A stretch of 64,000 nucleotides of DNA from Clostridia bacterium (GTDB lineage: Bacteria > Bacillota > Clostridia > UMGS1810), in assembly GCA_017502845.1 (NCBI GenBank), contig JAFVUE010000004.1, positions 1 to 64,000 on the forward strand. The letters are read 5' to 3'. Both the position numbers and the translations under genes were made by a program. Below are positions 2,993 through 37,904 of this stretch, one piece after another (positions within the stretch are counted from its first letter, which is position 1; each line of letters opens with the position of its first letter). The notes beneath the pieces are model-generated. The model saw only the letters and a program-made list of their open reading frames with translations, searched no databases and had not been told where the DNA came from.

Positions 2993-4903
2993 ATGGACAG
3001 CAACTTAAAGAGGATAATTGCAGAAAACAATTCTGCCCTGGAAAGTTCGAAAATGAATTTTCAGACGCTTTATACAATTATGTTTGCTAACAGCGGAGTC
3101 ATCGCCGAGGATAATAACGGCGTGTCAATAAATGAATATACATACGCTGATGTCCGCAACCGCATTGAAGAGGTTTCCTGTGCACTCCATGAGAGAATCG
3201 GCGCAACCGGCGGTTTCGTTGGATTGGAGATGGAAAACTCCATTGACTGGATCGTGGCATTCTGGGCAATCCTCCGAAGCGGAAACAAACCTTATCTTAT
3301 TAATTGCCGCCACCCCGAATCACTTGCAAATTCCGCATTGAAGACACTCGGCATCAGATACATCGTGGGCAATGGCGAGAGCCGCCTTGACGGGGAGTTT
3401 ATAGATATCAAAACACTCACAACGGCAAACAGATTTGATGGGGTGTTTGAGGATGAGATAGCACTTTCTACATCTGCCACATCACTTAAGGAAACAATCT
3501 GTTTCTATGGCGGTAAGGAGATAGCAACACAGATTCTCAATATGAAAGGGTTTATCCGAGAGTATCCCGAGATTGCAAAGAAGCATAACGGCAGAATAAA
3601 GAATCTGGCGTTCCTGCCGTTTTACCATATTTTCGGGCTGATAGCAGTTTACTTCTGGTTCACGTTTTTCGGGCAGACAGTTGTTTTTATGAAAAACTAC
3701 TCATCCGACACAATTCTCAAAACCTGCAAGAAACACGGTGTAACACATATCTTCGCCGTTCCGCTTCTGTGGCACACAATCGAAAATGCGGTTATGAAGA
3801 AGGCGAAAGAGGGAGGAGAAAAGAAAGTCCGGAAATTGAGGAAGGGCGTTAAAATCTGCACTTCCATTCAGAATATCTTCCCACGCCTGGGAATGAAGAT
3901 CGCCCAGAAGATTATGGGTGAGGTTACGGAGCAACTTTTCGGAAATACGCTTTGTTTCTGCATATCGGGCGGAAGTTACATAAGACAGTCTGCCCTGGAA
4001 CTTATCAACGGATTGGGCTATAATCTTCATAACGGCTACGGCATGAGCGAAATCGGAATCACTTCCGTAGAACTTCGCACACGCCCCAAACACAAAAATC
4101 TTAACTCCATAGGCAAACCTTTTGATTCCGTCGAGTATAAAATTGATGAAAACGGAATTCTCAACGTCAAGGGCTCGTCCATCTGCAGCAAACTGTGGAT
4201 TAACGGTGAACCACAGGAAATGGACGGATGGTTCTGCACAGGGGACAATATGGAGATGCGGGACGGATATTATTACATCAAAGGCCGTGTAGGGGATATG
4301 ATTATCGGCGAAAACGGTGAGAACATCAATCCCGACGTGATTGAGCAGAATTTTGACCTTCCCGAAGCGGAGAATTTCTGTATCCTCGGTCTTGAAACCG
4401 AGGGCAGGAAAACCGTTTCCATGATTGTTCAACTGGGCAGATACATGAGCACACAGAAGAAAAATGACCTTTTGGACAAAATTACAGAAACAAACAAATC
4501 TCTGCCAATAACATCCCGGGTACAGAAAATATATTGCACCTGCGACAACCTCTGCGCCGCAACTGCGGTTAAAGTGAGCAGAAGTTATGTTTTAAGAGCA
4601 GTTGCAAACGGAGATATAACCCTTGCGGAGTATAAGAAAGACGTTTCCGTCGGCGAAACGGAAGCCGACTACAGCCCCGAACTGTTAAAGGACGTTACGG
4701 AAATCGTGGCAAAAGCTCTCGATATCCCTGCAGAGAGCATCGATGCAAACGCCAACATTATGATTGACCTGGGTGCAGACAGTATGCAGTACTTCTCAAT
4801 CCTTACGGCAATAGCAGAGAAGTTTTCCGTGTCCTCATCTGAAAAAACAATTTCAAGTTATACCGTTCATGAAATCTGTCAATATCTCGAAAGGCATATC
4901 TGA
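2993..4903 (+). CDS. AMP-dependent acyl ligase fused to acyl carrier protein
   Basis: This 636-residue protein pairs an adenylate-forming domain (about 25-540) with a C-terminal ACP (about 555-636). Recognisable core motifs are LPFYHIFGL (208-216), NGYGMSEIG (347-355), GWFCTGD (412-418) and GRVGD (431-435). The ATP phosphate-binding loop, normally TSGTTGxPK, reads STSATSLKE (159-167), so it is degenerate, though a lysine is kept. The ACP has the LGADSM motif with Ser597 for phosphopantetheine. The likely job is to activate an acyl acid as acyl-AMP and load it on its own carrier for the two acyltransferases that follow. ATG 2993 is chosen over the TTG at 2966 because GAGGTG precedes it. Substrate unknown. 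Confidence 0.8.
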   Translation: MDSNLKRIIAENNSALESSKMNFQTLYTIMFANSGVIAEDNNGVSINEYTYADVRNRIEEVSCALHERIGATGGFVGLEMENSIDWIVAFWAILRSGNKPYLINCRHPESLANSALKTLGIRYIVGNGESRLDGEFIDIKTLTTANRFDGVFEDEIALSTSATSLKETICFYGGKEIATQILNMKGFIREYPEIAKKHNGRIKNLAFLPFYHIFGLIAVYFWFTFFGQTVVFMKNYSSDTILKTCKKHGVTHIFAVPLLWHTIENAVMKKAKEGGEKKVRKLRKGVKICTSIQNIFPRLGMKIAQKIMGEVTEQLFGNTLCFCISGGSYIRQSALELINGLGYNLHNGYGMSEIGITSVELRTRPKHKNLNSIGKPFDSVEYKIDENGILNVKGSSICSKLWINGEPQEMDGWFCTGDNMEMRDGYYYIKGRVGDMIIGENGENINPDVIEQNFDLPEAENFCILGLETEGRKTVSMIVQLGRYMSTQKKNDLLDKITETNKSLPITSRVQKIYCTCDNLCAATAVKVSRSYVLRAVANGDITLAEYKKDVSVGETEADYSPELLKDVTEIVAKALDIPAESIDANANIMIDLGADSMQYFSILTAIAEKFSVSSSEKTISSYTVHEICQYLERHI

Positions 4904-4905
4904 TT

Positions 4906-5562
4906 ATGAAAAAAAGCGATAAAATGAGCCGTCTTGTTTTAGGGTTTGTAAAACTGACGGGAGTACTCCCTGCATATCTGTTTCTCAAACCGAAAGTATA
5001 CAAAGTAAATAAATCCTCAAAGAGATTCCTGCCGAAGAAGGCAATTCTTATGTCAAACCACGTGTCTCTTCTTGATTTTGTGTTGTACGTTCTCATATTT
5101 TTATGGAGAAATATTTACTTCTTAATCGCAGAGGTTATGTTCAACAAAGGCAAACTTTTTGCCTGGTTTCTGTATAAGATAGGCGGTATCTTCGTTGACA
5201 GGAATGCCTGTAACTTTTCTTTTGTGGAAGAATCGCTGGATGTTCTGGAAAACAACGGGGTTGTGGGAATCTTCCCCCAGGGACGTCTCCCCGTGAACGG
5301 AAAGCCATTCCCATATAAACCCGGCATTGTTCTCGTTGCTCTGCGCACCGATGCACCCATAGTTCCCGTTTATACCGACGGCAACTATGGACTGTTCAAG
5401 CGCACTCACGTTATCATCGGCGAAGAGATTTATTTGAAAGATTACATCAACCACGACGGAGAGGTTACTAACGAAGAAATTGCATCGCTTACAAAAATGC
5501 TTGAAGAAAAGAATTATGCATTAAAAGAAGAACTGGAAAAGAGGATGTGCAAAAAAGCATGA
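4906..5562 (+). CDS. PlsC-type acyltransferase (first of pair)
   Basis: This 218-residue member of the lysophospholipid acyltransferase superfamily has the catalytic NHxxxxD motif as NHVSLLD (His52, Asp57) and an acceptor-binding block FPQGR (123-127) in place of the usual FPEGTR. Hydrophobic stretches near 12-28 and 58-78 suggest membrane association. It begins two bases after the acyl-ligase/ACP gene and overlaps the next acyltransferase by four bases (ATGA), so the three are translationally coupled. It would transfer an acyl chain from ACP to a glycerol-phosphate-like or other hydroxyl or amine acceptor. The change from Glu to Gln in the FP(E/Q)G block hints at an unusual acceptor. Confidence 0.8.
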   Translation: MKKSDKMSRLVLGFVKLTGVLPAYLFLKPKVYKVNKSSKRFLPKKAILMSNHVSLLDFVLYVLIFLWRNIYFLIAEVMFNKGKLFAWFLYKIGGIFVDRNACNFSFVEESLDVLENNGVVGIFPQGRLPVNGKPFPYKPGIVLVALRTDAPIVPVYTDGNYGLFKRTHVIIGEEIYLKDYINHDGEVTNEEIASLTKMLEEKNYALKEELEKRMCKKA

Positions 5563-6221
5563 AAGAACAGAAAAGAAAAAAAGCAAAGCTTTTTAATCTG
5601 AAGATGTTCCCCCTGGATATTGCCAAGATTTTGTGTACCCCTACGCTTCTGTTTTTCCGTATTAAGAAGATATACACATCCGATACGGCAAAGAAGAAAT
5701 TAAGAGGGGGAATGCTTATCGCGGCAAACCACACCTGCATTATGGACCCCCTGATCCTCTGCGCGTGTTTCTGGTACAGGAGGATATTCTATCTCACAGC
5801 AGAAGCCGTTATGGACAGAAAGAAACTTCGTGGTTTTTTGCTGAAAAAGTTGGGTTGTGTCAGGATAAACCGGGATATATGCGACATTGAATCAATCAGA
5901 TCCGCAACCGACGTGGTAAAGAATGGCCATGTTCTCGCACTCTTCCCACAGGGCGGAATCAAAGAAGACAATATAGAATCAATCAAGTCGGGAATAATTC
6001 TTCTCGCCATGCAATCGCGTGTCCCAATCGTTCCCTGCTATATACATAATAAAAGTGGTTTCGGCGACAGAAACTGCGTTGTTATAGGAGATCCCATCGA
6101 TATTTTTGAGAACGGCACTTTCCCTGCAATGAAAGAGATAAACAACCTTGCACAAACCGTTATGGAGAAAATGACGGAATGCAAGGCCATATATGAAGAA
6201 AGTAAGGAGAAGAGAAAATGA
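5559..6221 (+). CDS. PlsC-type acyltransferase (second of pair)
   Basis: This 220-residue acyltransferase resembles its upstream neighbour. It has NHTCIMD (His58, Asp63) and FPQGG (129-133), again with Gln instead of Glu. The two probably arose by duplication and may act at successive positions, as PlsB/PlsC-like steps do. ATG 5559 overlaps the previous stop (ATGA); a GTG at 5547 is possible but has poor spacing from its ribosome site. Its stop overlaps the ACP start by four bases. It carries a basic N-terminus (KEQKRKKAK) and no clear signal peptide, consistent with a peripheral membrane protein on the cytoplasmic face. Confidence 0.8.
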   Translation: MKEQKRKKAKLFNLKMFPLDIAKILCTPTLLFFRIKKIYTSDTAKKKLRGGMLIAANHTCIMDPLILCACFWYRRIFYLTAEAVMDRKKLRGFLLKKLGCVRINRDICDIESIRSATDVVKNGHVLALFPQGGIKEDNIESIKSGIILLAMQSRVPIVPCYIHNKSGFGDRNCVVIGDPIDIFENGTFPAMKEINNLAQTVMEKMTECKAIYEESKEKRK

Positions 6222-6463
6222 TAACAATTGAGATTCTGAAAGAATTGTTTGAGACAATTTTCGGTCAGGAACTTAACCTTGACGGCATCAGCGAATCATC
6301 GGATTTGAGAAAAGATATCGGTATGAATTCCATTTCGTTCCTGTATATGGCAATGGTTATGGAAGAGAAATACGGAATTAAGTTCAATAACGACGATTTT
6401 GAGAAGATCGCCACCGTCAAAGATGTTATGGAAACAGTTGAAAGCAAGGTGCAGTCCCGATGA
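6218..6463 (+). CDS. Acyl carrier protein
   Basis: This 81-residue four-helix carrier protein is acidic, with the attachment site GMNSIS (Ser38) instead of the usual GxDS: Asn replaces the conserved Asp before the serine. The Ser that takes 4'-phosphopantetheine is present, and a transferase of the Sfp type lies at 16698-17309. It is translationally coupled on both sides (4-base overlaps with the acyltransferase and with the LRAT-like gene). It is probably a dedicated carrier for this cluster, separate from the housekeeping fatty-acid ACP, which is not in the window. The variant site may affect recognition by the transferase. Confidence 0.85.
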   Translation: MITIEILKELFETIFGQELNLDGISESSDLRKDIGMNSISFLYMAMVMEEKYGIKFNNDDFEKIATVKDVMETVESKVQSR

Positions 6464-6864
6464 ACTGGACAGATAATGCACCTGTTTACGGGGATATGAT
6501 CCGCGTGAAAGTGAAGTTTTATCATCACTACGGAATTTTCGTGGATGAAAACACCGTTATACAGTTCGGTCTCCCTGACAATTCAGGCACACCACCCGAT
6601 GAAATCCAAGTTATGACGACGGATATAGCCACATTCGCAAACGGCGAATTTGTTGAGTGTGCGTCTCTTACCAAAGCGGAGAAAAAGCAACACCGCACAC
6701 CTGACGAGATTGTAAAGATTGCAACGTCTCGCCTTGGCGAACGCGGATATAATATCTTAAACAACAATTGCGAACATTTTGCCAATGAATGTTATTTCGG
6801 AGAAAGAAGATCTTTCCTGGACGATGTCCGCCATAAAATCAGACACAAACTCAATGCGAAATAA
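6460..6864 (+). CDS. LRAT-like permuted papain-fold protein
   Basis: This 134-residue protein matches the lecithin:retinol-acyltransferase/NlpC-P60 permuted papain fold. An early HHYGIF block supplies the catalytic His (His22/23), and NCEHFANECYFGE (103-115) supplies the nucleophile Cys104. LRAT-like enzymes form an acyl-Cys intermediate and act as phospholipid acyltransferases or thiol hydrolases. No signal peptide or membrane segment is seen. The gene overlaps the ACP by four bases and ends the five-gene run, which suggests that it transfers or removes an acyl chain made by the cluster. The link between this fold and an ACP/PlsC operon in Clostridia is not one I know as described. Confidence 0.75.
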   Translation: MNWTDNAPVYGDMIRVKVKFYHHYGIFVDENTVIQFGLPDNSGTPPDEIQVMTTDIATFANGEFVECASLTKAEKKQHRTPDEIVKIATSRLGERGYNILNNNCEHFANECYFGERRSFLDDVRHKIRHKLNAK

Positions 6865-6931: not shown

Positions 6932-6970
6932 AAAAAACACCCCTTGACCGACAAGTCAAGGGGCTTTATT
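6932..6970. terminator. Bidirectional terminator between converging genes
   Basis: A 9-bp stem (CCCCTTGAC/GTCAAGGGG) has an A run before and T-rich sequence after, between the LRAT-like gene and the convergent deacetylase gene. Confidence 0.8.
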
Positions 6971-7808
6971 TTGCTACATCTTCAAACGTAGTGAATGTAT
7001 ATTCCTGTTTTTTGAGTTTCTTTATGATGAGTTCTATCTTCCGGGGGTAGGAGTTTACACCTGCCCGTAAGTAGTACCAATCCATGAATTTCAGCTTCTT
7101 TATAAACGGTCTTTTCTCTCTTGAAAGTTCAAAGGGATGTGTGTAGAAAACATAACTGTCGCTCTTTTTGAAACGTTTGTGCAGGAGAGATTTGATAAAC
7201 GACCAGTTAGCCATTCTGATATAGCCACCGCCTGAGACGGGAAAATTCTTTCCGAACACTTTTTGTGTGGAGATGCCAAATTCATAGAAGTTGTCTTTCT
7301 TGTAGATTTCACTTGCAATCTTCTCAAATCCGTCCATATTCATATACGAATTATGACGAGCAGAGAATTCCATTCTACTTGCATCGTATCTGAACCCCAG
7401 ATTTTCAAGAATTGCAAGTTTCTCTCTGTCTATACTGAAACATGGCGCTCTGTAGCCAACAACGGGAATGCCGAATGTGTCCTCAAGATCCTGTTTCGCC
7501 TGGGCAATCTGCATTTCAAACGCTTCATTGTCCATCATCTTCGGCGGAACGTGGCGTTTGCCGTGCAATGCGATTTTATGGCCGTTTTTGATATAACCTT
7601 TGAGTTTTTCCTTAATCTCATTTGCCGTTTCACTCAGGACGAACAATGTGGCTTTGATGCCGTGTTTATCCAAAATATCAATGTAACGGTCAAGACCGTC
7701 CATCATGGTCTGGCTTACGGGCTGCTTCGTGTTGTAAACACATTCCGTATCTGCCAGGCGTTCCACATCAATTGTGAAGAAGGCATACTTGTTTTTCTGT
7801 CTTTTCAT
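6966..7808 (-). CDS. NodB-type polysaccharide deacetylase
   Basis: This 280-residue protein starts with the NodB signature YAFFTIDVER, carrying the first catalytic Asp, followed by IALHGKRHVPP, which corresponds to the metal-binding H-x3-H block, and GYRAPCFS (the catalytic RAPxF loop). Members remove N- or O-acetyl groups from sugars in a metal-dependent reaction. There is no signal peptide, so a cytoplasmic nucleotide-sugar or lipid-linked substrate is more likely than the cell wall. The start codon lies 40 bases inside the 3' end of the hydrolase gene, so the two are co-transcribed. It fits an island that builds or trims a lipid or glycolipid; the substrate is not known. Confidence 0.8.
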   Translation of the reverse strand: MKRQKNKYAFFTIDVERLADTECVYNTKQPVSQTMMDGLDRYIDILDKHGIKATLFVLSETANEIKEKLKGYIKNGHKIALHGKRHVPPKMMDNEAFEMQIAQAKQDLEDTFGIPVVGYRAPCFSIDREKLAILENLGFRYDASRMEFSARHNSYMNMDGFEKIASEIYKKDNFYEFGISTQKVFGKNFPVSGGGYIRMANWSFIKSLLHKRFKKSDSYVFYTHPFELSREKRPFIKKLKFMDWYYLRAGVNSYPRKIELIIKKLKKQEYTFTTFEDVAK

Positions 7809-8760
7809 AGGCGTTAATAAATTCCTTTATCTCGGCATCGTATTTTTCGGTATTGTTGATTCTTAAGTGTGAATGGCTGCCCTTGTCAAACCAGACAAGT
7901 TTTTTGTCCGCCGAAGCACATGCGTCAAAGAGTTTCTGGCTCTTTGGCGGAAGTGAGAAGATGTCTTTCTTTCCAAAGAGGAAAAGGATTGGACAGCGGA
8001 TATTCTTAACGGCCTTGATAGGCGATTTCGCCATTACGTTTGTTCCGGCGTTTCGCCAGATATGGTACATAACCAGATCCAGAACGGGGAATACAGGTTT
8101 TTTCTTTTCGATTATGTGCTGCTTGAAGGATTCACGGAAATTTGTGAAACACCCCTCCAAAACAATTCCTTCAATGCCTTTGGGGCAATCTTCCGACGAT
8201 GCCGCCAGAAGCGCCGCGGCACTGCCCACGCAGATTCCGTGGAGCCAGAATCTGTTTATGCCGAATTCCTCTTTTATAAATTTAATCCACGCCTTTAAGT
8301 CTTCGGCTTCGCAACGGCCGATTGTTGAATATTTACCATCACTTTTACCGTGGCATCTGCTATCGATTACCAGGACATTATAACCTGCCTCCTGATATGG
8401 CTTTGCAAAATAGTAAGAATACTGAAGGCACTCGCATCTTCCGGGGAGAATAACAACACAGGTGTCGCCGCCAAAGTCGAAGTATTCACCGAAAAGAGAT
8501 AAGCCGTCGTTTCTGATAGACACCTCGGTCATGGCAGATTTATTCTCTCTGCCCCAGGTGTTGCCATCGTCCCACATCTGCACCTGTTCTGCATTTTCAG
8601 GAGCGGAGCAGGTTCGTCCCCATTTGTCATCAGAAGATTTTACAAGATATTCGTTGTAGACATTTTTTGATATCGGGTATGTGATAAAAAGCATTACCGC
8701 AAAGCCCGATATTGCAAGAAACACAACTAATGCAAGTATAATTAAAATCAAAGAAGGCAT
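7768..8760 (-). CDS. Membrane-anchored alpha/beta hydrolase with Cys nucleophile
   Basis: The start at ATG 8760 follows CCAAGGAG and gives a 330-residue protein with one N-terminal transmembrane segment (about 5-28) and an alpha/beta hydrolase domain. The nucleophile elbow, usually GxSxG, reads GICVG (175-179), placing Cys177 where Ser is expected. The oxyanion region VILPGRCE, a later FGKKD (acid) and GSHSH (His) complete the triad. Cys elbows are known in dienelactone hydrolases and in some thioesterase-like proteins. The enzyme would act at the membrane surface on esters, thioesters or lipids. It is transcribed with the deacetylase downstream and divergently from the FakB gene. Confidence 0.8.
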   Translation of the reverse strand: MPSLILIILALVVFLAISGFAVMLFITYPISKNVYNEYLVKSSDDKWGRTCSAPENAEQVQMWDDGNTWGRENKSAMTEVSIRNDGLSLFGEYFDFGGDTCVVILPGRCECLQYSYYFAKPYQEAGYNVLVIDSRCHGKSDGKYSTIGRCEAEDLKAWIKFIKEEFGINRFWLHGICVGSAAALLAASSEDCPKGIEGIVLEGCFTNFRESFKQHIIEKKKPVFPVLDLVMYHIWRNAGTNVMAKSPIKAVKNIRCPILFLFGKKDIFSLPPKSQKLFDACASADKKLVWFDKGSHSHLRINNTEKYDAEIKEFINAYEKTEKQVCLLHN

Positions 8761-8875
8761 ATATTTATCTCCTTGGAATAAGTTTGGTTTTGCCGGGAGT
8801 TTTCCGAAGGAAAAATCCATATATGTCAAGTATACCACAAATAATTTGATTTTGCATCACTTTTTTAATTTTTTG

Positions 8876-8942: not shown

Positions 8943-9878
8943 ATGAATGATTTTGTTATCATACCAGATACGTCCTGCGACCTTACAAAAGATCTGCGAA
9001 AGAGATTTAATATAGAACACGTTGTGCGTGGTGTGGTGTATCCTCCCGACGGTTCACAGATTTATGCCGACCTTGACTGGGAGGTAATGAGCCCTGAAGA
9101 GTACTACGCATCAATGCGTGGCAGAAATATTCTCTACAAAACTGCTACTCCCCCTGTTGGCGAGATCACAGAGGTTTTCGAAACGGCTCTCAAAGAGGGG
9201 AAAGATATTTTAGCAGTAACACTTTCTACCGGAATATCCGGAACATTTAACGTGGTTAAGGGCGTTGCTGACCAGCTTATGGAGCAGTACCCTGAAAGAA
9301 AGATTGTATGCATAGATTCGTTGAGATATGCATCGGCAGAAGGATTGCTCACAATACTCGGTTGTCTTAAGAGGGAAGAAGGCGCCACTTTGGATGAAAC
9401 AGCAGAGTACCTTAACACAATAAAGCACTCCATTCATCAGAGCGGATGTCTTGACGACCTGTTCTTCTGTGTGAAGACAGGTAGAGTAACAAGTGTCAAG
9501 GCGTTCTTCGGCACACTTGTCGGTGTGAACACATTGGCAGATTTTTCAAGCGACGGCGTCCCGAAAGTTATCGGTAAAACCAAGGGCAAACGTGCTGCTA
9601 TTGATGCCATAATACGATATATGAAAGAAACCATTGTAAATCCTGAAAAACAGATTATCTTCGTCGCACACTCCGTAAGGGAAGAAAGTGCGAAGATTCT
9701 CGCAGAGAAAATCCGGGAAACCTTTAATCCCAAAGAGATTATTATTAACCCTGTTGGTATTTCCTGCGGTTCATCAATAGGCCCCGGAATGTGCGCTGCG
9801 TTTTATATAGGCGACCCCATCTCCGAGGATGGATCGAAAGAGGAAACCATCATGGATAAAGTATTAAAGAGCAAATAA
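8943..9878 (+). CDS. fakB: DegV-family fatty-acid-binding protein (FakB type)
   Basis: This 311-residue DegV protein binds a fatty acid and presents its carboxylate to the kinase FakA. Visible marks: the N-terminal IIPDTSCDL strand-loop, TATPPVGE, LSTGISGTFN (a head-group-binding Thr/Ser region) and KTGRVTS. Length is slightly above the usual 280-290 residues. It is the first of two FakB paralogues upstream of a FakA-like protein and PlsX, which supports the assignment beyond generic DegV. The two paralogues probably prefer different chain types, as known FakB1/FakB2 pairs do; which one does what cannot be read from sequence. Confidence 0.85.
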   Translation: MNDFVIIPDTSCDLTKDLRKRFNIEHVVRGVVYPPDGSQIYADLDWEVMSPEEYYASMRGRNILYKTATPPVGEITEVFETALKEGKDILAVTLSTGISGTFNVVKGVADQLMEQYPERKIVCIDSLRYASAEGLLTILGCLKREEGATLDETAEYLNTIKHSIHQSGCLDDLFFCVKTGRVTSVKAFFGTLVGVNTLADFSSDGVPKVIGKTKGKRAAIDAIIRYMKETIVNPEKQIIFVAHSVREESAKILAEKIRETFNPKEIIINPVGISCGSSIGPGMCAAFYIGDPISEDGSKEETIMDKVLKSK

Positions 9879-9894
9879 TACGGGGGATGATGAA

Positions 9895-10785
9895 ATGAAT
9901 GAGTTTGTAATTATGGCAGATTCCACAGCGGATCTTGAGAAAAAATTGCGTGATCAGTATGAGATCGATTACGTGCGAATGAATTATGTCATTGACGGTG
10001 TTGAATACGACGCGTCTCTCGACTGGGAGAATCACGGTTCAACGGAGTTTTATAATATAATGAGAAACGGAACAAGAGTTTTTACAACCCAGGTTCCGAG
10101 AGATGAATATGTAAATAAATTCAGCGCTCATCTTGAGGCGGGTAAGGACGTGCTTTACATCGCGTGTTCCTCTGCGCTTTCCGGTTCTGTTAATCAGGCG
10201 AAAATCATTGCTGAAGAATTAAAAGAGAAATATCCTGACCGCAGGGTTATCTGCATTGATTCTCTCTGCAGTTCGCTTGGCCAGGGATATATGCTTATCC
10301 GTGCCGCAGAACTCAAGAAAGAGGGCAAGTCCTTAGAAGACGTTGCGCAGTATATAGAAGACAACAAACTCAAGGTAAACCAGTTCGGTACAGTTGAGAA
10401 TTTAACGTACCTGAAACGTGCGGGACGAGTTGCTGCATCCAGCGCGTTCTTCGGCAATATGTTCGGCATCAAGCCCATTATCATTTCAGACAAGCAGGGA
10501 CAGAACTTTGCAATCGAGAAAGTAAAGGGTATCGCAAATGCGAGGGAAAAGATTGCCGAGCACATATCAAATATTGTTGAGGATGAGGGCTGTCTCTATA
10601 TTTCCCATGCGGATTGCATTGAAGAGGCAGAAAAATTCCGTGATGCGATTTTGGCAGTTGTGCCTTTCAAAAATGTTATTATCGGAACAATCGGACCTAT
10701 CGTTGGTTCATGTGTAGGCCCCGGCACAGTTATCACATTCTGCTTTGGTAAAGAAGTAACAGTAAGCGGAGAAGAGAATAAATAA
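9895..10785 (+). CDS. fakB: DegV-family fatty-acid-binding protein (second FakB)
   Basis: This 296-residue paralogue of the preceding gene, 16 bases downstream, opens with VIMADSTADLEK and carries VFTTQVPRDEY, CSSALSGSVNQ and KRAGRVAASSAF. These match the ligand-binding blocks of DegV proteins, but with Ser and Ala in places where the first copy has Thr, which suggests a different lipid preference. It should hand a bound fatty acid to FakA for phosphorylation at the cytoplasmic face. The gene order fakB-fakB-fakA-plsX gives strong functional context. Confidence 0.85.
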   Translation: MNEFVIMADSTADLEKKLRDQYEIDYVRMNYVIDGVEYDASLDWENHGSTEFYNIMRNGTRVFTTQVPRDEYVNKFSAHLEAGKDVLYIACSSALSGSVNQAKIIAEELKEKYPDRRVICIDSLCSSLGQGYMLIRAAELKKEGKSLEDVAQYIEDNKLKVNQFGTVENLTYLKRAGRVAASSAFFGNMFGIKPIIISDKQGQNFAIEKVKGIANAREKIAEHISNIVEDEGCLYISHADCIEEAEKFRDAILAVVPFKNVIIGTIGPIVGSCVGPGTVITFCFGKEVTVSGEENK

Positions 10786-10803: not shown

Positions 10804-12441
10804 ATGAGTACAAACCATATTGATGCAAATATTCTTTACAATATGCTTGTCAACGGCTACAGAAATTTAATGCTGATGGAACAGCAGGTAAACGACCTGA
10901 ACGTTTTTCCGGTTCCTGACGGCGACACGGGAACGAATATGGTCAAAACCCTTGCGGGAGGAGTGGCCATCAATGTTGATGACTACAGCGACGTTTCATC
11001 TATGATGGCGGCTTTTTCAAAATCCGTTCTTCTGGCAGCGCGTGGTAATTCAGGTGTTATCCTCTCCCAGTATATCCGCGGTTGGGCAAATGCTGTATCG
11101 GGTAAGAGCGAACTTGAAATCCCTGATATTAAAGATATGTTCCGACAGGGCGTAAAGTCTGCTTACGGCTCTGTGCCCAATCCAGTTGAGGGAACTATGC
11201 TCACAGTTATCCGTGAGCCAAGCGAAGCATTGGACAAAGCAGAGAATTTTGAGGATATTAAGGCCCTTTTTGCTTTCGTTATCGAAAATATGAAAGTTAC
11301 CCTGCAGAACACTCCCGAACTCCTTCCCGTTTTGAAAGAGGCGGGTGTTGTAGACTGCGGCGGTATGGGAATTATATATTTCACAGAGGGAATATGGGCT
11401 TATCTTAATGGCGAGATAATCAAAGCAGACAGCGAAAGAGAAAGCACCATCGTGTTAAGTCCAGCCAGGGCATTCGGCCCCGATAGTGTTCTGGAATACG
11501 GCTACTGCACAGAATTCGTACTCCAACTCATGAACGCAAAAACAAATATCTCCACCTTTTCAATCGGAAATGTTATCTCGTATCTCGAAACTGTGGGCGA
11601 TTCTATTGTTGCAGTTCAGGATGATGATATAGTTAAAGTCCACGTGCACACATTCACGCCCGAGAAAGTTCTCGGATTTGCCAGAAACTACGGAGAATTC
11701 ATATCCGTGAAGATAGAGAACATGTCTGTTCAGCACAATGAGATTTCAGGCGGACAGGCACGTGAATCCAGGAAAATCAAGTATGCCGTTATTGCCGTTG
11801 CAAACGGAGAAGGCGTTAAGGATTATTTTGTGGAAATTGGCGCAACCCGTGTGATTGAAGGCGGACAGACACAGAATCCATCAACACAGGATTTCTTAAA
11901 TGCGTTTAATTCCGTAAATGCAGAGCACATTGTTGTTCTGCCGAATAATTCAAATATATATGCTACCGCTATACAGGCGGCGGATATGTATGAGGGCTCC
12001 GACGTTCACGTTCTGAAAACAAAATCTATTGCCGAGGGGTATTCTGCTCTTTCCATGATGAATACATGGTCGGAGGATATTGATTCCTTCATAGGAGATA
12101 TGACATTTAGTCTTGGTAATGTTACATCCGCTGAAGTAACAAAGGCGGTGCGCGATGCAACCGTCGGAGGTGTGGATGTTAAAGAAGGAATGTATATGGG
12201 TATTGCCGACGGAAAAATCCTGTATTCTTCCGACGACAGTTTTGATACTGCCCTTGGTATGATAAAGAATATTCCGGATATTGATGATAAAGCCGTTATC
12301 ACTGTCTTTTACGGCGAATCCGTCAGCGAAGAAACAGCCAATAAACTCATATCGGAAATCACGGACGCATTCCCTGAAATAGAATGTGGTGCTATCTCCG
12401 GCAAACAGAAACTTTATGATTATTATATAGCAGTTGAATAA
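10804..12441 (+). CDS. fakA: Fatty acid kinase catalytic subunit (DhaL/DAK2 type)
   Basis: This 545-residue protein has an N-terminal DhaL nucleotide-binding domain with NVFPVPDGDTGTNM (the Asp residues bind Mg-ATP), AARGNSGVILSQ, and GTMLTVIREPSEA. A middle domain contains YGYCTEFVL and IVKVHVHTFTPEKVL, and a C-terminal DegV-like domain carries NGEGVKDYF and LPNNSNIYATAIQA. This three-part layout is that of FakA (YloV), which phosphorylates FakB-bound fatty acids to acyl phosphates. The length fits the family. It starts 18 bases after the second fakB and is followed by plsX, which interconverts acyl-phosphate and acyl-ACP. Confidence 0.92.
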   Translation: MSTNHIDANILYNMLVNGYRNLMLMEQQVNDLNVFPVPDGDTGTNMVKTLAGGVAINVDDYSDVSSMMAAFSKSVLLAARGNSGVILSQYIRGWANAVSGKSELEIPDIKDMFRQGVKSAYGSVPNPVEGTMLTVIREPSEALDKAENFEDIKALFAFVIENMKVTLQNTPELLPVLKEAGVVDCGGMGIIYFTEGIWAYLNGEIIKADSERESTIVLSPARAFGPDSVLEYGYCTEFVLQLMNAKTNISTFSIGNVISYLETVGDSIVAVQDDDIVKVHVHTFTPEKVLGFARNYGEFISVKIENMSVQHNEISGGQARESRKIKYAVIAVANGEGVKDYFVEIGATRVIEGGQTQNPSTQDFLNAFNSVNAEHIVVLPNNSNIYATAIQAADMYEGSDVHVLKTKSIAEGYSALSMMNTWSEDIDSFIGDMTFSLGNVTSAEVTKAVRDATVGGVDVKEGMYMGIADGKILYSSDDSFDTALGMIKNIPDIDDKAVITVFYGESVSEETANKLISEITDAFPEIECGAISGKQKLYDYYIAVE

Positions 12442-12462: not shown

Positions 12463-13440
12463 ATGAAAAAAATTATAGTTGATACACTTGGCTCGGATAA
12501 CGGCTGTGTTCCGATTGTTAAAGGCGCACTCCGCGCCATGGAAGAAAATCCTGATATACATCTGGTTTTCACAGGCGTTACTTCCGACATTGAAAAGATT
12601 ATAAAAGAACGTAATGCTGATCCGTCAGGAATCAGCATTATTCATACTGAAGAATTTGTTCCCGACGATGCCCTGCCCACATGTGTTTTCAGGGACGGGG
12701 ACGAAACCTCTATGGTAAAATCGCTGGAGCATCTTAAAAACAGCGACGACTGTCTTGGTATGATATCTGCAGGAAACACAGGTGCACTCCTTGTGGGAAC
12801 TATTTTCCGTCTTGGTCTTGTGCCGGGACTCCGCCAACCTGCACTTGCAACGGCACTCCCCTGCAAAAAAGAGGGTAAGGTTTGCCTTGTGGATTGCGGC
12901 GCCAATACAGACTGCACTTCCGAGGACCTGAAGCGTTACGCTCTTATGGGGAATGCTTTTATCAAAGCGCTTGAAGGGATTGACAATCCCAAAGTAGCGC
13001 TTATGTCCGTTGGGCCCTCTGCGCATAAGGGCAACGCACTTATCAAGGAGGCATATCCCTTAATCGAAGCATTGCCGATTAACTTCATTGGCAATATTGA
13101 GGGAGGAGACCTTGTAAATTCAAAAGCAGACGTTATTGTAACAGATGGGTTTACAGGCAATGTGCTCCTTAAAAACACCGAAGCCGCAGGTATGGCGGCA
13201 ATTTCTGTTGTTGAGTCAATGGGCTCGGATTTGCCCGGTTATAAGGAAATAACAGAAGAACTCCGCAGAATGTTTGCATTCAATGACCGGGGAGGAGCAG
13301 TTTTCCTCGGCGCTTCAAAAACCGTTGTGAAGATGCACGGTTGCGCTACGGAAGACACTGCTTATGCCTGTGTAAACCTTGTTCTCAATCTGGAAAGCCG
13401 CAATTTTTCAAAGAACGTGGCAGAGGCGATCAAAGATTGA
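12463..13440 (+). CDS. plsX: Phosphate acyltransferase PlsX
   Basis: This 325-residue protein interconverts acyl-ACP and acyl phosphate for phosphatidic acid synthesis. It has the PlsX N-terminus VDTLGSDNG (canonical DxMGGD here altered to DTLGSD), the GMISAGNTGALL loop and VTDGFTGNVLLK near the C-terminus. Co-location with FakA/FakB is logical: acyl phosphates from exogenous fatty acids and from ACP meet at PlsX. The usual partner plsY and the acpP/fabH neighbours of a housekeeping plsX are absent. Together with the changed N-terminal motif, that makes a specialised second PlsX possible; I cannot tell whether another copy exists elsewhere. Confidence 0.88.
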   Translation: MKKIIVDTLGSDNGCVPIVKGALRAMEENPDIHLVFTGVTSDIEKIIKERNADPSGISIIHTEEFVPDDALPTCVFRDGDETSMVKSLEHLKNSDDCLGMISAGNTGALLVGTIFRLGLVPGLRQPALATALPCKKEGKVCLVDCGANTDCTSEDLKRYALMGNAFIKALEGIDNPKVALMSVGPSAHKGNALIKEAYPLIEALPINFIGNIEGGDLVNSKADVIVTDGFTGNVLLKNTEAAGMAAISVVESMGSDLPGYKEITEELRRMFAFNDRGGAVFLGASKTVVKMHGCATEDTAYACVNLVLNLESRNFSKNVAEAIKD

Positions 13441-13512: not shown

Positions 13513-14547
13513 TTAACTTCTTACGATATCGTTGTATTTTGACACGTGGAGCATCTTATGTACAAGGTATTCTGCAGGGATAAGGGAAGCCACAAAGAAA
13601 TTGAACGAAATAAAGAGCGGTATAAAAGGCATTGTGAATTTGAAGAACGTGATGCCGATGCTGTACCCTATAAATCGCAGTGTTGTGTAAATCGCCGTTC
13701 GCATAAGGTCTCTGTACCTGAAATCCCGGAAGACAACGAATTTGTTTAATATAATATTGAAAACAACTCCCGTAGCACCGATCGTAGGGATTGTGATATG
13801 GGTTTGCTCATAACCGAAAAATATGGAAGCGAATAAAAGCAATTTTTCTATAATGAGCCATGATGCAATTGAAACACGTGCGCTGTAGAAAAGTTGCGCA
13901 TAAATGCGGAGCGTATCTTTCACAGGGCTAAAATGAGAAGATGAATTGTTATCTATGTACAGTGCTTCAATGGGGATAGTCGTAATCTGGATTTTCTGTT
14001 TGTCCGCATGGTAGAGAACGTTCATTTCGTAGTCATATTTGTTTCCGCCTACTTTGACAAGCCACTCGGCATTTTCGGCAGAAAATCCACGGAGCCCCGA
14101 TTGGTTATCCGGGAAATAATGGCCGTTTAATATAGTGTAGATATAACGGGAAAGGTTGTTTCCCACCTTTGAACGGAATGGCATATCATCCCTGAATTCC
14201 CTGACTGTGAGAACGAACTCCGCACCACGTTCAAGTTCATTAAAAACGCGGATAATATCCTCACATTTATGCTGACCGTCGGCGTCTGCGGTAACGAAGT
14301 ATTCACATTCGGGATACTTCTGCATAAGTGTCATCATTCCCGTTTTCAGGGCGCCGCCCTTACCGGAATTACAAACAATGGACACGACTTCTGCTTTGTC
14401 GGAAACGGAGTCAAATATCTCTTTGTACTCCGGACCGCTTCCGTCATCCACGACTATTGCGCCAAAGCCGCTGTCGTGAATCTTGTCAACAATCTGCACA
14501 AGTTCATGATTGGGTTTGTAAGCAGGTATAATTACGATTTTTTTCAT
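13513..14547 (-). CDS. GT2 glycosyltransferase fused to GtrA-like membrane domain
   Basis: This 344-residue protein has an N-terminal GT-A fold glycosyltransferase (about 1-220) with IIPAYKPN, VVDDGSG and the metal-binding TADADGQH, resembling dolichyl-phosphate-mannose-synthase-like enzymes. A C-terminal GtrA-type domain (about 225-335) has four hydrophobic helices. Such fusions load a sugar onto a polyprenyl phosphate and help flip or position it for transfer to surface glycans or lipids. The ATG overlaps the stop of the upstream hydrolase gene by four bases, so both are coupled. The sugar and acceptor are unknown; the neighbourhood suggests glycolipid or cell-envelope decoration. Confidence 0.85.
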   Translation of the reverse strand: MKKIVIIPAYKPNHELVQIVDKIHDSGFGAIVVDDGSGPEYKEIFDSVSDKAEVVSIVCNSGKGGALKTGMMTLMQKYPECEYFVTADADGQHKCEDIIRVFNELERGAEFVLTVREFRDDMPFRSKVGNNLSRYIYTILNGHYFPDNQSGLRGFSAENAEWLVKVGGNKYDYEMNVLYHADKQKIQITTIPIEALYIDNNSSSHFSPVKDTLRIYAQLFYSARVSIASWLIIEKLLLFASIFFGYEQTHITIPTIGATGVVFNIILNKFVVFRDFRYRDLMRTAIYTTLRFIGYSIGITFFKFTMPFIPLFISFNFFVASLIPAEYLVHKMLHVSKYNDIVRS

Positions 14548-15518
14548 TGTAACAAATCCTTATCTTTCATTTTTTGTATATAGAAATCCGATATAATCTT
14601 CACAATATCATAATTCGGCTGATTCTCCTCGTTGTAAAGAATTGTTGTATGTCCGTCAAAACCATCTCTGCCATAGAGCAGAAACTCCGTGTTTGCCGAT
14701 GTTACTTTTTCTTTGTTGGAATAGATGGAATAATCCCCACCAGAAAGTTGCTCGTCGTTTTCTGACTGGATTATGAGGACGGGGATTTCGGTATTGTTTA
14801 TTTCCGCTACGGCGGATTTTTCCGCAACGGTTCTGCCGAAAATGAAGTCCTCATATATGTCGAGGAACGGATAATTTATATATGCGATGCCGCCCACATA
14901 GCTGGTCGTCAGTGCCATAATCGCATCCATTGAGGTGTCCATCCCGTTGACGGATACAGCGGCAGTAATATTGGGGTGGTCGTTCATGGCACAGCAGATT
15001 CCGTAACCACCACGGCTGTAACCCAAAAGGAAAATATCGTCATGACCGAAATTGTCATTGCTTTCTATGAATTTCAGTGTGGCGTCAACATCCACTATAA
15101 TCTGGGGGAATCCCACAGAACTTTTCCCGCCGCTTTCACCGTGGCCGGTGGCATCAAATGCGAAAACGTCAAACCCTTCCTGAAGGAAGGCGTAGATTAA
15201 ACATTCGTATTCGGTCCTTTGCGACCTGAATCCGGGTGCAATGACGATAAGCCCTTTGCCCGGTTCTTCGCCGGTATACAGCCGACTGCTCAAAAAATTT
15301 TCCCCGCACATATATGAGAAAGATGCGCATGTTGCCTCCCGGGGGATTTCCACGGTTGAAAATTCTTCAGTTACGTCGGGGGTATACGGCCGGAACACAA
15401 AATCATACACAAACTTGGTTACAAGAATAGAAACCGCAATATAGATAATAATAGTAACACCGATACCTTTCAGAACTTTCCTGAGTTTTGATTTGTTTAC
15501 AGATATCACTATTATCAC
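14544..15518 (-). CDS. Membrane-anchored alpha/beta hydrolase
   Basis: This 324-residue hydrolase has an N-terminal transmembrane segment (about 16-36) and a Ser elbow GYSRGG. FDATGHGESGG precedes the elbow, and the acid IIQSENDEQL and the His region GFDGHTTIL follow. It is a relative of the Cys-elbow enzyme at 7768-8760 but with the normal serine. It is the first gene of a two-gene unit with the GT2-GtrA fusion. Expected activity is ester or thioester hydrolysis at the membrane. It may be a lipase-like editing enzyme for the island; that is inferred from context only. Confidence 0.8.
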   Translation of the reverse strand: MIIVISVNKSKLRKVLKGIGVTIIIYIAVSILVTKFVYDFVFRPYTPDVTEEFSTVEIPREATCASFSYMCGENFLSSRLYTGEEPGKGLIVIAPGFRSQRTEYECLIYAFLQEGFDVFAFDATGHGESGGKSSVGFPQIIVDVDATLKFIESNDNFGHDDIFLLGYSRGGYGICCAMNDHPNITAAVSVNGMDTSMDAIMALTTSYVGGIAYINYPFLDIYEDFIFGRTVAEKSAVAEINNTEIPVLIIQSENDEQLSGGDYSIYSNKEKVTSANTEFLLYGRDGFDGHTTILYNEENQPNYDIVKIISDFYIQKMKDKDLLQ

Positions 15519-15651: not shown

Positions 15652-16629
15652 ATGCTGTTTGAACCATCTTATGAATACAGAATCATAAAAGAAGAGGACT
15701 TTCCCTCGAAAATCCTTGAAATCACAGACGTGCTGAACAAGCATATCAACCAGGGATATTTCACATCCTTTGACGGACAGCAGATGTATTATGAATTCTT
15801 CAGGGTGGCAAAGCCACAGGCGAATATTGTCCTTGTTCACGGCTACACGGAATTTGCGAAAAAATATTATGAACTTGTGTGGTACTTCATGTCAATGGGT
15901 TACAATGTGTTTTTGTACGATGTTCGCGGACATGGAAATTCTTACCGTTTATCCGATGATATGCAGATGACACACGTTGATAAATACGAAGACTATGTTG
16001 AAGACCTTGACGCCTTTATAAAACAAATTGTAATTACCAATGGCGATGATGCTCCGGTTTATCTGTTTGGTCATTCCATGGGCGGTGCGATTGCGCAAAT
16101 GTATATTTCCACAAAGGAAAACCCCGTTTCCAAAACAGTACTTTCTGCCCCCATGGTGTACCCTTACACTCCTCCTCTTCCGGGATTTGTATTAAAAAAA
16201 CTCATCGCAAGGGAAGCAAAGAAGTTCGGATGGGACGCCAGGTTCAAATTCTCATCAGAGTTCAACCCCGAAGCAGAACTTGAAAAAAGCAACGATCTGA
16301 GTTATACGCGGTTCCGCTACAATCTTGACACAAGGATAAACAATGTGAAATACCGCAATTCCTACGGTTCCAACCGCTGGACTTATGAAACCCTGTGTGT
16401 TGCAAAGAAAATTCTTAACAAAAAGGCAATATCAAACGTCAAATGCGACGTGCTTATTATTATTGCCGGAAAAGATACTGCAGTAAACCCGAAATATCAG
16501 AAAAAACTTGCAAAAAAACTCGGTTGCGAATGCAAGATATTTGCAAACTCCAAGCATTCTCTCTACACATTGCCCGATAATCAACTGTCGGGATACGTGG
16601 ATGCCCTGATAGAATTCTGCCGCAGGTAA
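15652..16629 (+). CDS. Lysophospholipase/monoglyceride-lipase-like hydrolase
   Basis: This 325-residue cytoplasmic alpha/beta hydrolase carries LVHGYTE, YDVRGHGNS, the nucleophile elbow FGHSMGGA, IAGKDTAVNPK (acid) and NSKHSLYT (His). This is the serine-aminopeptidase/PldB-like pattern. It has no signal peptide. The likely role is removal of acyl chains from monoacyl glycerolipids, giving fatty acids to the FakAB kinase nearby or cleaning up by-products of the acyltransferases. It is preceded by a dispersed repeat and followed 68 bases later by the phosphopantetheinyl transferase on the same strand. Confidence 0.8.
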   Translation: MLFEPSYEYRIIKEEDFPSKILEITDVLNKHINQGYFTSFDGQQMYYEFFRVAKPQANIVLVHGYTEFAKKYYELVWYFMSMGYNVFLYDVRGHGNSYRLSDDMQMTHVDKYEDYVEDLDAFIKQIVITNGDDAPVYLFGHSMGGAIAQMYISTKENPVSKTVLSAPMVYPYTPPLPGFVLKKLIAREAKKFGWDARFKFSSEFNPEAELEKSNDLSYTRFRYNLDTRINNVKYRNSYGSNRWTYETLCVAKKILNKKAISNVKCDVLIIIAGKDTAVNPKYQKKLAKKLGCECKIFANSKHSLYTLPDNQLSGYVDALIEFCRR

Positions 16630-16697
16630 CTATATGTAATATATTATCACACGGATATGTGTATTGCAATAATTTTCTTTCGAAAAGGGTGTTGTCT

Positions 16698-17309
16698 GTG
16701 CTCAAGTATGTAATAAAAGATATTTCCGATATCACCGAAGAAGAATACGACCTGTCCTTTTCATATATGAGTGAGAGCCGCAAGGAAAAATCGCAGCGGC
16801 AGAGAAACCCTCTTGCGAAGAAAAGTACTCTGGCAGGGGAGTGGCTTGTGCGTTCGCTCCTTTGCGAGATCACGGGCAGGGGCGCGGATACATTTGTGAT
16901 TGATGCCGACGAAAAGGGAAAACTCTACTCTCACAATGCCGACGGCCTTTTCTTCAACATCAGCCATAGCCACGGAAAGGTTGCTGTTGCCGTGTGCGAC
17001 AAGGAAATAGGTATAGATATCGAAACGGTCCACCCCGTTAATCTTAAACTTGCAAAAAGGGTATGCACTCCCGATGAACTCATATACATTTTCGGCCATT
17101 TGCCCCAGGAGAGCGGATATGACGAAACCGAAAATACCGGATATATCCGCCGTTTTCTTGAGATATGGACTCTTAAGGAAGCGTACTTAAAGTGTACGGG
17201 GACGGGGATAACGAGTTTCGATGCTCTCATACTCCCCGATGATAACTTTGAAAAAATCAAAATCGAAGACGATGGATATATAATGCATATTGTAATAAGA
17301 GAAATATAA
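16698..17309 (+). CDS. 4'-Phosphopantetheinyl transferase (Sfp type)
   Basis: GTG 16698 follows AAAAGGG by eight bases and gives a 203-residue protein. Diagnostic motifs are FNISHSHG (86-93), the metal-binding GIDIE (105-109) and WTLKEAYLK (157-165, Trp-x2-Lys-Glu-Ala). The enzyme moves phosphopantetheine from CoA to the carrier-protein serine. It is shorter than Sfp (about 224 residues) but has all motifs. The two carrier domains at 2993-6463 are the obvious local clients; the housekeeping AcpS is not in the window. Its presence supports the idea that the island uses its own carrier proteins. Confidence 0.88.
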   Translation: MLKYVIKDISDITEEEYDLSFSYMSESRKEKSQRQRNPLAKKSTLAGEWLVRSLLCEITGRGADTFVIDADEKGKLYSHNADGLFFNISHSHGKVAVAVCDKEIGIDIETVHPVNLKLAKRVCTPDELIYIFGHLPQESGYDETENTGYIRRFLEIWTLKEAYLKCTGTGITSFDALILPDDNFEKIKIEDDGYIMHIVIREI

Positions 17310-37071: not shown

Positions 37072-37734
37072 CTATTCGTTATTTCCTCTTAAACTATGGA
37101 TTGCATCTAAAATTTCTTCATCGGTAAAATTATACTCTGCATCTATAAGTTTTGATGCGCTATGATATAAAACCGTCTTTTTTATCAGTGCTGGACAAGT
37201 CAATTGTTCAAGTGTGTGGTCATCCTCGTTCGAAGTAGAGACAAAGTTTTTGAAAGTCCTGCCTTTGATTTTTTTCCCCGTGTCTCTTGTAGAGCGCAGA
37301 CAACCTTTATATTTACCGCGAGTGTTGATGGTTGTGAGCCTGAAAATTTCTGTTTCATAGATATCAACAACGCTAATTACATTATCTTCACCTATGGTAT
37401 AATTAATGAGAAAAGCTTTCTTATCGTTCAATAAATGAGGAGAATTACATATTGTTACGCCACTTAATGCGCCGTCCTTACAGCTTTTCACTTCGTATCC
37501 CTCTTCAACACCGTCATTATATGTAATAACAACATCTGCTTTTTCGTCGTTCGGATTTGTATTAATTTCCACATTGCAGATATTAAACTCAACTGCTCTT
37601 TCTCGGTAGAAATTGCCTACTTCAACCTGTAGTGGAGTCCCAAAGTTTGCCCCTTTGCGATAAGTCCAGTTGGTTTTGTTTGACATAATTACATCATTAA
37701 TGTAGGATTTGAGTTCATCGTTTTTACTTCTCAA
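37072..37734 (-). CDS. Putative type II restriction endonuclease (PD-(D/E)xK)
   Basis: TTG 37734 sits six bases after GAGAGGTG and gives 220 residues; the GTG at 37743 is part of that site. The central ADVVITYNDGVEEGYEVKS fits a PD-(D/E)xK nuclease core (Asp67, Glu81, Lys83). No named endonuclease family was recognised. Assignment rests on the core plus position: it is divergent from a cytosine-5 methyltransferase, 171 bases apart, with a terminator after it. The region is more AT-rich than its flanks. The recognition site cannot be deduced. Confidence 0.75.
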   Translation of the reverse strand: MRSKNDELKSYINDVIMSNKTNWTYRKGANFGTPLQVEVGNFYRERAVEFNICNVEINTNPNDEKADVVITYNDGVEEGYEVKSCKDGALSGVTICNSPHLLNDKKAFLINYTIGEDNVISVVDIYETEIFRLTTINTRGKYKGCLRSTRDTGKKIKGRTFKNFVSTSNEDDHTLEQLTCPALIKKTVLYHSASKLIDAEYNFTDEEILDAIHSLRGNNE

Positions 37735-37810
37735 GCGAAACACCTCTCTAAAATTATTTTTGATTTGTTTTGTCGTGTGTGTTTAAGGGCCTTTTGTTAT
37801 TAGCAAACAG

Positions 37811-37839
37811 TTGACATAAAAGAATTTGGAAGATATAAT
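37811..37839 (+). promoter_or_regulatory. Perfect-consensus promoter of the methyltransferase
   Basis: TTGACA (37811-37816), 17 bases, TATAAT (37834-37839): an exact sigma-A consensus. It would give strong constitutive methylation, as expected for protection of host DNA. Confidence 0.88.
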
Positions 37840-37904
37840 AAAAAAGAAAAGAATGTTACTAAGCCATCAAAATTGCTTATTAAAAATGATGGAGGATCTA
37901 TGAT

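Follow-up and report, generated by a model that had tools for sequence, protein, structure and literature searches.

Enzymes of the LRAT/PLAAT type are known mainly from vertebrate lipid metabolism. Among described bacterial systems, the Aas/LplT/PldB cycle of Escherichia coli reacylates 2-acyl-glycerophosphoethanolamine (PMC4666226), AcpB of Enterococcus faecalis is an acyl carrier protein (ACP) that serves exogenous fatty acids alone and is favoured by PlsX (PMC12594616), and BtrH of the butirosin pathway is a papain-like ACP:aminoglycoside acyltransferase whose acyl donor is a carrier protein (PMC10318531). Here we describe a five-gene operon from a Clostridia bacterium (UMGS1810) that combines an ACP-fused acyl ligase, two PlsC-type acyltransferases, a free ACP and an LRAT/PLAAT-like thiol enzyme. 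It lies in a stretch of 64,000 nucleotides (assembly GCA_017502845.1, contig JAFVUE010000004.1, positions 1–64,000, forward strand), referred to below as the window. All its parts belong to known families and their combination appears to be undescribed: in the open-access literature searched, outside which most subscription papers lie, we found it described neither in connection with LRAT proteins and an ACP or a 4'-phosphopantetheinyl transferase (PPTase) nor for acyl-ACP ligase clusters or fatty acid-scavenging Clostridia, in agreement with a preliminary description of this DNA that knew of no system with this set. We propose, with about an even chance of being right, that the operon activates and transfers acyl groups at the heart of a wider cluster, through which fatty acids taken up from outside or recycled would enter glycerolipids; for this route we infer all reactions, substrates, products and the direction of flow. 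On its best reading, by analogy, the cluster would be a split Aas/LplT-like system to which a PLAAT-like thiol enzyme has been added.

The five genes lie on the forward strand at 2993–6864, with successive gaps of +2, −4, −4 and −4 bases between their reading frames. The first encodes an AMP-forming acyl ligase with a C-terminal acyl carrier domain (LGADS; 2993–4903), its ATG at 2993 being preceded by GAGGTG. It is followed after two bases by PlsC1 (4906–5562) and then by PlsC2 (5559–6221), both with NHX4D and FPQG motifs, the free ACP with a GMNS motif (6218–6463) and the LRAT/PLAAT-like thiol enzyme (His23, Cys104, Gln35 and an NCEHF motif; 6460–6864), each of the last three overlapping its predecessor by four bases. 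The Pfam assignments of all five proteins exceed the curated cut-offs, with E-values of 2.7e-32 (AMP-binding) and 1.5e-8 (PP-binding) for the ligase, 3.1e-19 and 1.5e-15 (Acyltransferase) for PlsC1 and PlsC2, 1.3e-9 (PP-binding) for the free ACP and 1.1e-21 (LRAT) for the thiol enzyme. The tight packing reported in the preliminary description is therefore correct to the base, and Pfam agrees with its identification of the ligase-ACP fusion, the two PlsCs, the free ACP and an LRAT-like Cys-His protein.

We scanned GTDB genome contigs with an alignment of the ligase, which gave 574 stretches and 361 relatives; the best 80 of these 361 were fetched and, together with the window, form the set of 81 loci used below. 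The 80 fetched loci are titled as metagenome-assembled genomes of Clostridia or Bacilli (one only as "bacterium" and one as "Firmicutes"), most of them from ruminants or other herbivores. All five parts are present in 35 of the 81 loci (23 with separate PlsCs, 7 with fused PlsCs and 5 in which a second ligase is added), and others are without the LRAT-like gene, without the free ACP or of the form MFS_2–ligase–PlsC1–hydrolase. In the window's own family the operon is found in 2 of 16 genomes; the second bearer, G005, is from a different genus. Its five genes follow the order seen in the window, and identity to their counterparts there is 66% for the ligase, 74% for PlsC1, 54% for PlsC2, 60% for the ACP and 65% for the LRAT-like protein. 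Since the order is kept in another genus and the five-part set recurs in so many loci, the arrangement is not due to chance. The co-conserved neighbourhoods that had been suggested as a check in other Clostridia do exist, being retained across Clostridia and Bacilli, but their distribution is patchy, as the count within the window's family illustrates.

The conserved unit extends beyond these five genes. By family search, the neighbours common to the window, G005 and most relatives are a FakA-like fatty acid kinase (10804–12441, + strand), two DegV/FakB-like fatty acid binding proteins (8943–9878 and 9895–10785, both +), PlsX of the acyl-ACP:phosphate acyltransferase family (12463–13440, +), a GT2 glycosyltransferase with a C-terminal membrane region (13513–14547, −), the alpha/beta hydrolases ABH1 (7768–8838, −; start codon uncertain) and ABH2 (14544–15518, −), a further alpha/beta hydrolase (15652–16629, +) whose closest NCBIfam model is lysophospholipase L2 (PldB), below its cut-off, and an Sfp-type PPTase (16659–17309, +), which is kept near the operon in relatives. 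A polysaccharide deacetylase with a DUF3473 domain (6966–7808, −) is, like ABH1, a recurrent neighbour. The FakA of the window scores under the strict FakA equivalog cut-off and over that of the YloV subfamily. Among the 81 loci FakA occurs in 68, DegV in 66, ABH1 in 56, PlsX in 46, GT2 in 43 and the PPTase in 23, these counts being lowered by contig ends. Among the operon genes, pairwise distances are correlated at r of about 0.8–0.9, and equally so with the distances of FakA, PlsX and GT2, while ABH1 gives lower values; co-inheritance would produce this pattern, to which shared species history also contributes. The clusters of some relatives further include a transporter gene of the GPH/MFS_2 family, and some carry DegV–FakA–MFS_2–ligase–PlsC1–hydrolase as a single run. 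In locus L113 (1116–11830) ten genes on the same strand, DegV–FakA–MFS_2–ligase/ACP–PlsC1–hydrolase–PlsC2–second ligase–ACP–PPTase, form a composite of all the module types. We dropped the description of MFS_2 as a proven lysophospholipid transporter, as no solved relative was found by sequence and membership of the GPH/MFS_2 family alone is supported. Thus, the five genes do form an operon, as first described, but the functional unit is wider and takes in FakA, FakB, PlsX, the PPTase, hydrolases resembling lysophospholipases and esterases, and sometimes MFS_2.

Like the E. coli Aas/LplT/PldB system, this cluster pairs a PlsC-type acyltransferase with an acyl-ACP ligase for reacylating lysophospholipid by way of ACP, has an L2-like gene nearby and, in some relatives, a major-facilitator transporter, the activities here being predicted ones. 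It differs in that ligase and acyltransferase are separate proteins, the carrier is fused to the ligase and there are two PlsCs; moreover, the cluster has its own ACP, PPTase and LRAT-like enzyme, and its transporter is MFS_2 of the GPH type rather than LplT. In keeping with this separation, the window scores far below the cut-offs of the NCBIfam models NF006386 and NF005959 (Aas and LplT-Aas equivalogs). The FakAB–PlsX route of fatty acid incorporation, including AcpB, is matched by FakA, two DegV/FakB proteins and PlsX in the conserved cluster and by a second ACP dedicated to it, whereas the ATP-dependent ligase-ACP fusion, the two extra PlsCs, the LRAT-like enzyme and the dedicated PPTase are additions. 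In the mechanism that we propose, acyl chains would be released by the alpha/beta hydrolases, one of them lysophospholipase L2-like, and possibly by the PLAAT-like thiol enzyme. FakB and FakA would then form acyl-phosphate, which PlsX would exchange with the dedicated ACP, while in a parallel branch the ligase would adenylate a fatty acid and load its own fused carrier, the Sfp-type PPTase having converted these carriers to the holo form. This loading of dedicated carriers through both FakAB–PlsX and the ligase is suggested by analogy with E. faecalis AcpB, and the subsequent esterification of (lyso)glycerolipids from them by PlsC1 and PlsC2 by analogy with Aas. The LRAT-like protein may form a Cys-thioester in moving or cleaving an acyl group, and would be a phospholipase A/transacylase or, with acyl-ACP as its donor, an acyltransferase. 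A single acyl pathway with dedicated carriers had been proposed from the gene packing, and the co-inheritance of the acyl-activating ligase, both acyltransferases and the thiol enzyme supports it.

The catalytic residues of these proteins are largely intact. In an alignment of relatives the ligase keeps its catalytic Glu (86/86), hinge Asp (86/86) and A10 Lys (83/86). Its P-loop is atypical: in place of the canonical glycine-rich TSGTTGxPK of ANL (AMP-forming) ligases the window has TSATSLKE, and the family has TSAT[ST], with Ala for Gly in 62 of 86 sequences and Gly in 24. A divergent branch of the ligase (L065, L066 and L067, from G097, G071 and G207) has a near-canonical TSGSTSKPK P-loop together with a fused twin PlsC of 464–465 aa, and its host genomes retain FabF-like synthases. 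The phosphopantetheine Ser of the ligase-fused carrier is invariant among the 84 sequences that cover its position, and the preceding Asp is replaced by Thr or Ser in 67 of 86; relatives of the free ACP likewise all keep the Ser (60/60), preceded by Asn in 42 of 60. The GMNS motif noted in the preliminary description, with which the Asp of the DSL motif is absent from the free ACP of the window, is real, and the loss of Asp before the carrier Ser is moreover family-wide. PlsC1 relatives keep the His (64/64) and Asp (63/64) of NHX4D, which PlsC2 also retains. FPQG, singled out in the same description, is indeed present in both window PlsCs; we dropped it as a distinctive motif, Gln being a common variant at that position in both PlsC1 (22/64) and PlsC2 (30/49) relatives. 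The best NCBIfam relative of PlsC1 is the PlsC part of the LplT–PlsC–ligase fusion NF006386, below the cut-off of that model, and in many relatives PlsC1 and PlsC2 are joined into one protein of ~420–450 aa.

The operon is further associated with absence of the ketoacyl synthase. Of 50 ligase-positive genomes, 35 gave no match to the ketoacyl synthase domain PF00109; the other 15 have a match, five of them only weaker ones in tandem ketoacyl synthase open reading frames (ORFs) of ~660–830 aa. Poor completeness is not the cause, since 39 of the 40 genomes to which the scan led have PlsY. By comparison, PF00109 is present in 297 of 391 genomes in an even class sample of Clostridia, and the difference between bearers and other Clostridia (15/50 vs 291/379) has a p of about 1e-10, with the two groups sampled differently and phylogeny not taken into account. 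In the window's species, the cluster for type II fatty acid synthesis (FASII) of the same-genus genome G015 is missing while both its flanks are present, the left unbroken within contig C3 (to 136213), the right within contig C1 (from 24896); FabF was tested by PF00109 and the other fab and acc genes were assigned by reading. FASII loss in this species is supported by these preserved flanks. The assembly itself is 0.82 Mb in size and 72% complete, and the PlsY, AcpP–rnc and Cmk–PlsC–IspH neighbourhoods of its sister are missing from it together with their flanks, so that the apparent loss of these housekeeping genes is uninformative. As a separate observation, tandem ketoacyl synthase ORFs of ~660–830 aa occur at G419:C20, G420:C82, G422:C95, G423:C32, G413:C12, G414:C13 and G071:C17; several have carrier proteins nearby, and their host genomes are otherwise often without FabF.

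Taken together, FASII loss, FakAB–PlsX and the L2-like gene favour fatty acid assimilation or recycling into glycerolipids; of the two products considered at the outset, an unusual glycerolipid or an acylated small molecule, the glycerolipid direction is retained and the small molecule is disfavoured. Assimilation is also supported by the linkage to FakA, DegV, ABH1 and PlsX, by the single runs that join DegV and FakA to the ligase in relatives, by the LRAT–PPTase fusions described below and by the intact catalytic residues and, in sequence comparisons, by a neighbour closest to lysophospholipase L2 and a PlsC1 closest to an acyl-ACP phospholipid O-acyltransferase model. De novo fatty acid synthesis seems to be absent from many uncultured gut Clostridia and Bacilli, and a recognisable cluster for making lipids out of scavenged acyl chains would help in understanding the lifestyle of its bearers and in predicting the lipids that they need in culture.

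Several observations weigh against this interpretation. The ligase P-loop is atypical and its fatty acid substrate a putative one, and the MFS_2 transporter is not present in the window. The association with ketoacyl synthase loss is weak within the even class sample (PF00109 in 6/12 vs 291/379; p about 0.04, phylogeny ignored), and some operon-positive genomes, such as the 99% complete G330, keep a FabF-like synthase; FASII loss is therefore not required, and an exclusive link between it and the operon was rejected, several complete bearers having such synthases. Most tested bearers also keep the housekeeping PlsY and have another ACP and another PlsC besides those of the operon, which leaves the need for a second set unexplained; on these grounds we rejected the operon as a general replacement of the housekeeping route, and it would instead supplement core phospholipid synthesis. 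Finally, GT2 and the polysaccharide deacetylase have no place in a simple salvage of phospholipids. These last features suit a pathway devoted to making an unusual membrane lipid or an acylated glycolipid, in which the ligase and carriers would handle a particular acyl chain or head group, PlsC1 and PlsC2 would acylate a backbone of non-standard type, and a sugar head would come from GT2 and the deacetylase. The linkage of GT2 (in the 43 loci above) and, in some, of the deacetylase, the retained housekeeping enzymes, a PPTase and two dedicated carriers of its own as in specialised lipid pathways, and a weak resemblance of PlsC2 to the lyso-ornithine lipid O-acyltransferase OlsA all speak for this alternative, which we regard as possible if on the unlikely side. 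Against it, the conserved core has neither a ketoacyl synthase nor a reductase or a tailoring enzyme, many loci are without GT2 and the deacetylase, whose genes also sit on other strands, and FakAB, PlsX and the L2-like gene suit salvage.

The LRAT-like protein, of 134 aa and beginning directly in the LRAT domain, bears on two further alternatives. Its relatives all keep His23 and Cys104 (47/47), and the second His that is the third catalytic residue of the LRAT/PLAAT family is replaced in every one by Gln (38) or Glu (9) at position 35. Its AlphaFold2 model (pLDDT 91.5) has human PLAAT2 and PLAAT3 as top Foldseek matches (E about 1e-6), and PLAAT is also the best match of its sequence profile against the PDB (E 2.1e-11). 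It shares with PLAAT/HRASLS enzymes the fold, the His and Cys of the dyad and NCEHF, but differs from them in its Gln/Glu third position, in a short C-terminus without an evident membrane anchor and in its linkage or fusion to ACP and PPTase. The model also matches a Euglena respiratory supercomplex subunit (PDB 8iuf chain E7; TM 0.65 by query length). By model and sequence the protein has a permuted NlpC/P60 fold with a His-Cys dyad, and a phospholipase A or acyltransferase activity is predicted for it. Its closest solved relatives being PLAAT phospholipase A/acyltransferases, and the bacterial permuted NlpC/P60 enzyme Tox-Act1 being a phospholipase A (PMC12994826), the cluster might serve phospholipid remodelling or repair without uptake, with the PLAAT-like enzyme deacylating or transacylating, the ligase recharging the freed fatty acid and PlsC1 and PlsC2 reacylating the lysolipid. 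We consider this unlikely, despite the L2-like neighbour, because the strong FakAB linkage and the FASII-loss association indicate an external acyl supply and 13 loci without the LRAT-like gene still keep the ligase, two PlsCs and ACP.

In three relatives an LRAT domain and a PPTase occur in one protein (L055:3835–4848, L061:1–778 and L064:6646–7644), a link between the LRAT enzyme and the biochemistry of carrier proteins, and the cluster would offer a bacterial setting that connects LRAT/PLAAT-type enzymes with acyl carrier proteins. The same fusion to an intracellular enzyme places the LRAT-like protein inside the cell and argues against its being a lipoprotein or protein N-acyltransferase supplied with an acyl donor by the operon. 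The permuted NlpC/P60 enzymes LnsA (PMC7387801) and Lnb/DUF4105 (reported in PMC12994826), which N-acylate lipoproteins, are precedents for such an activity; yet LnsA has a predicted signal peptide, unlike the short window protein, and we saw no LnsB-like gene in the cluster, though no search was aimed at one, making this explanation highly improbable. The donor of the LRAT-like protein may be a phospholipid or acyl-ACP; for the latter, BtrH offers a papain-like precedent in the use of an ACP-derived acyl group, though its Pfam family and pathway differ. More speculatively, and with a rather low probability, the LRAT-like protein could be an acyl-ACP-dependent thiol acyltransferase that, together with the GxNS carrier and the PPTase of that carrier, produces an undescribed lipid class in gut Clostridia and Bacilli; if true, this would be a new activity for the LRAT/PLAAT family.

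A few further features were seen in the window. An anti-phage defence system was rejected as an identity of the operon, its five proteins having no match among the PADLOC models. A possible promoter precedes it at 2916–2945 on the + strand (TTTGCA/TTGCAA, a 17–18 nt spacer, TATACT and an extended TG), but promoter-like matches around the operon, this weak site included, are not commoner than in shuffled sequence. A terminator-like hairpin with a T-rich tail on both strands (6940–6963) lies between the operon and the convergent downstream gene. Farther away, at 37072–39065, a DNA cytosine methyltransferase-like gene stands beside a divergent gene of ~220 aa, which by reading of the sequence is a possible restriction-modification pair.

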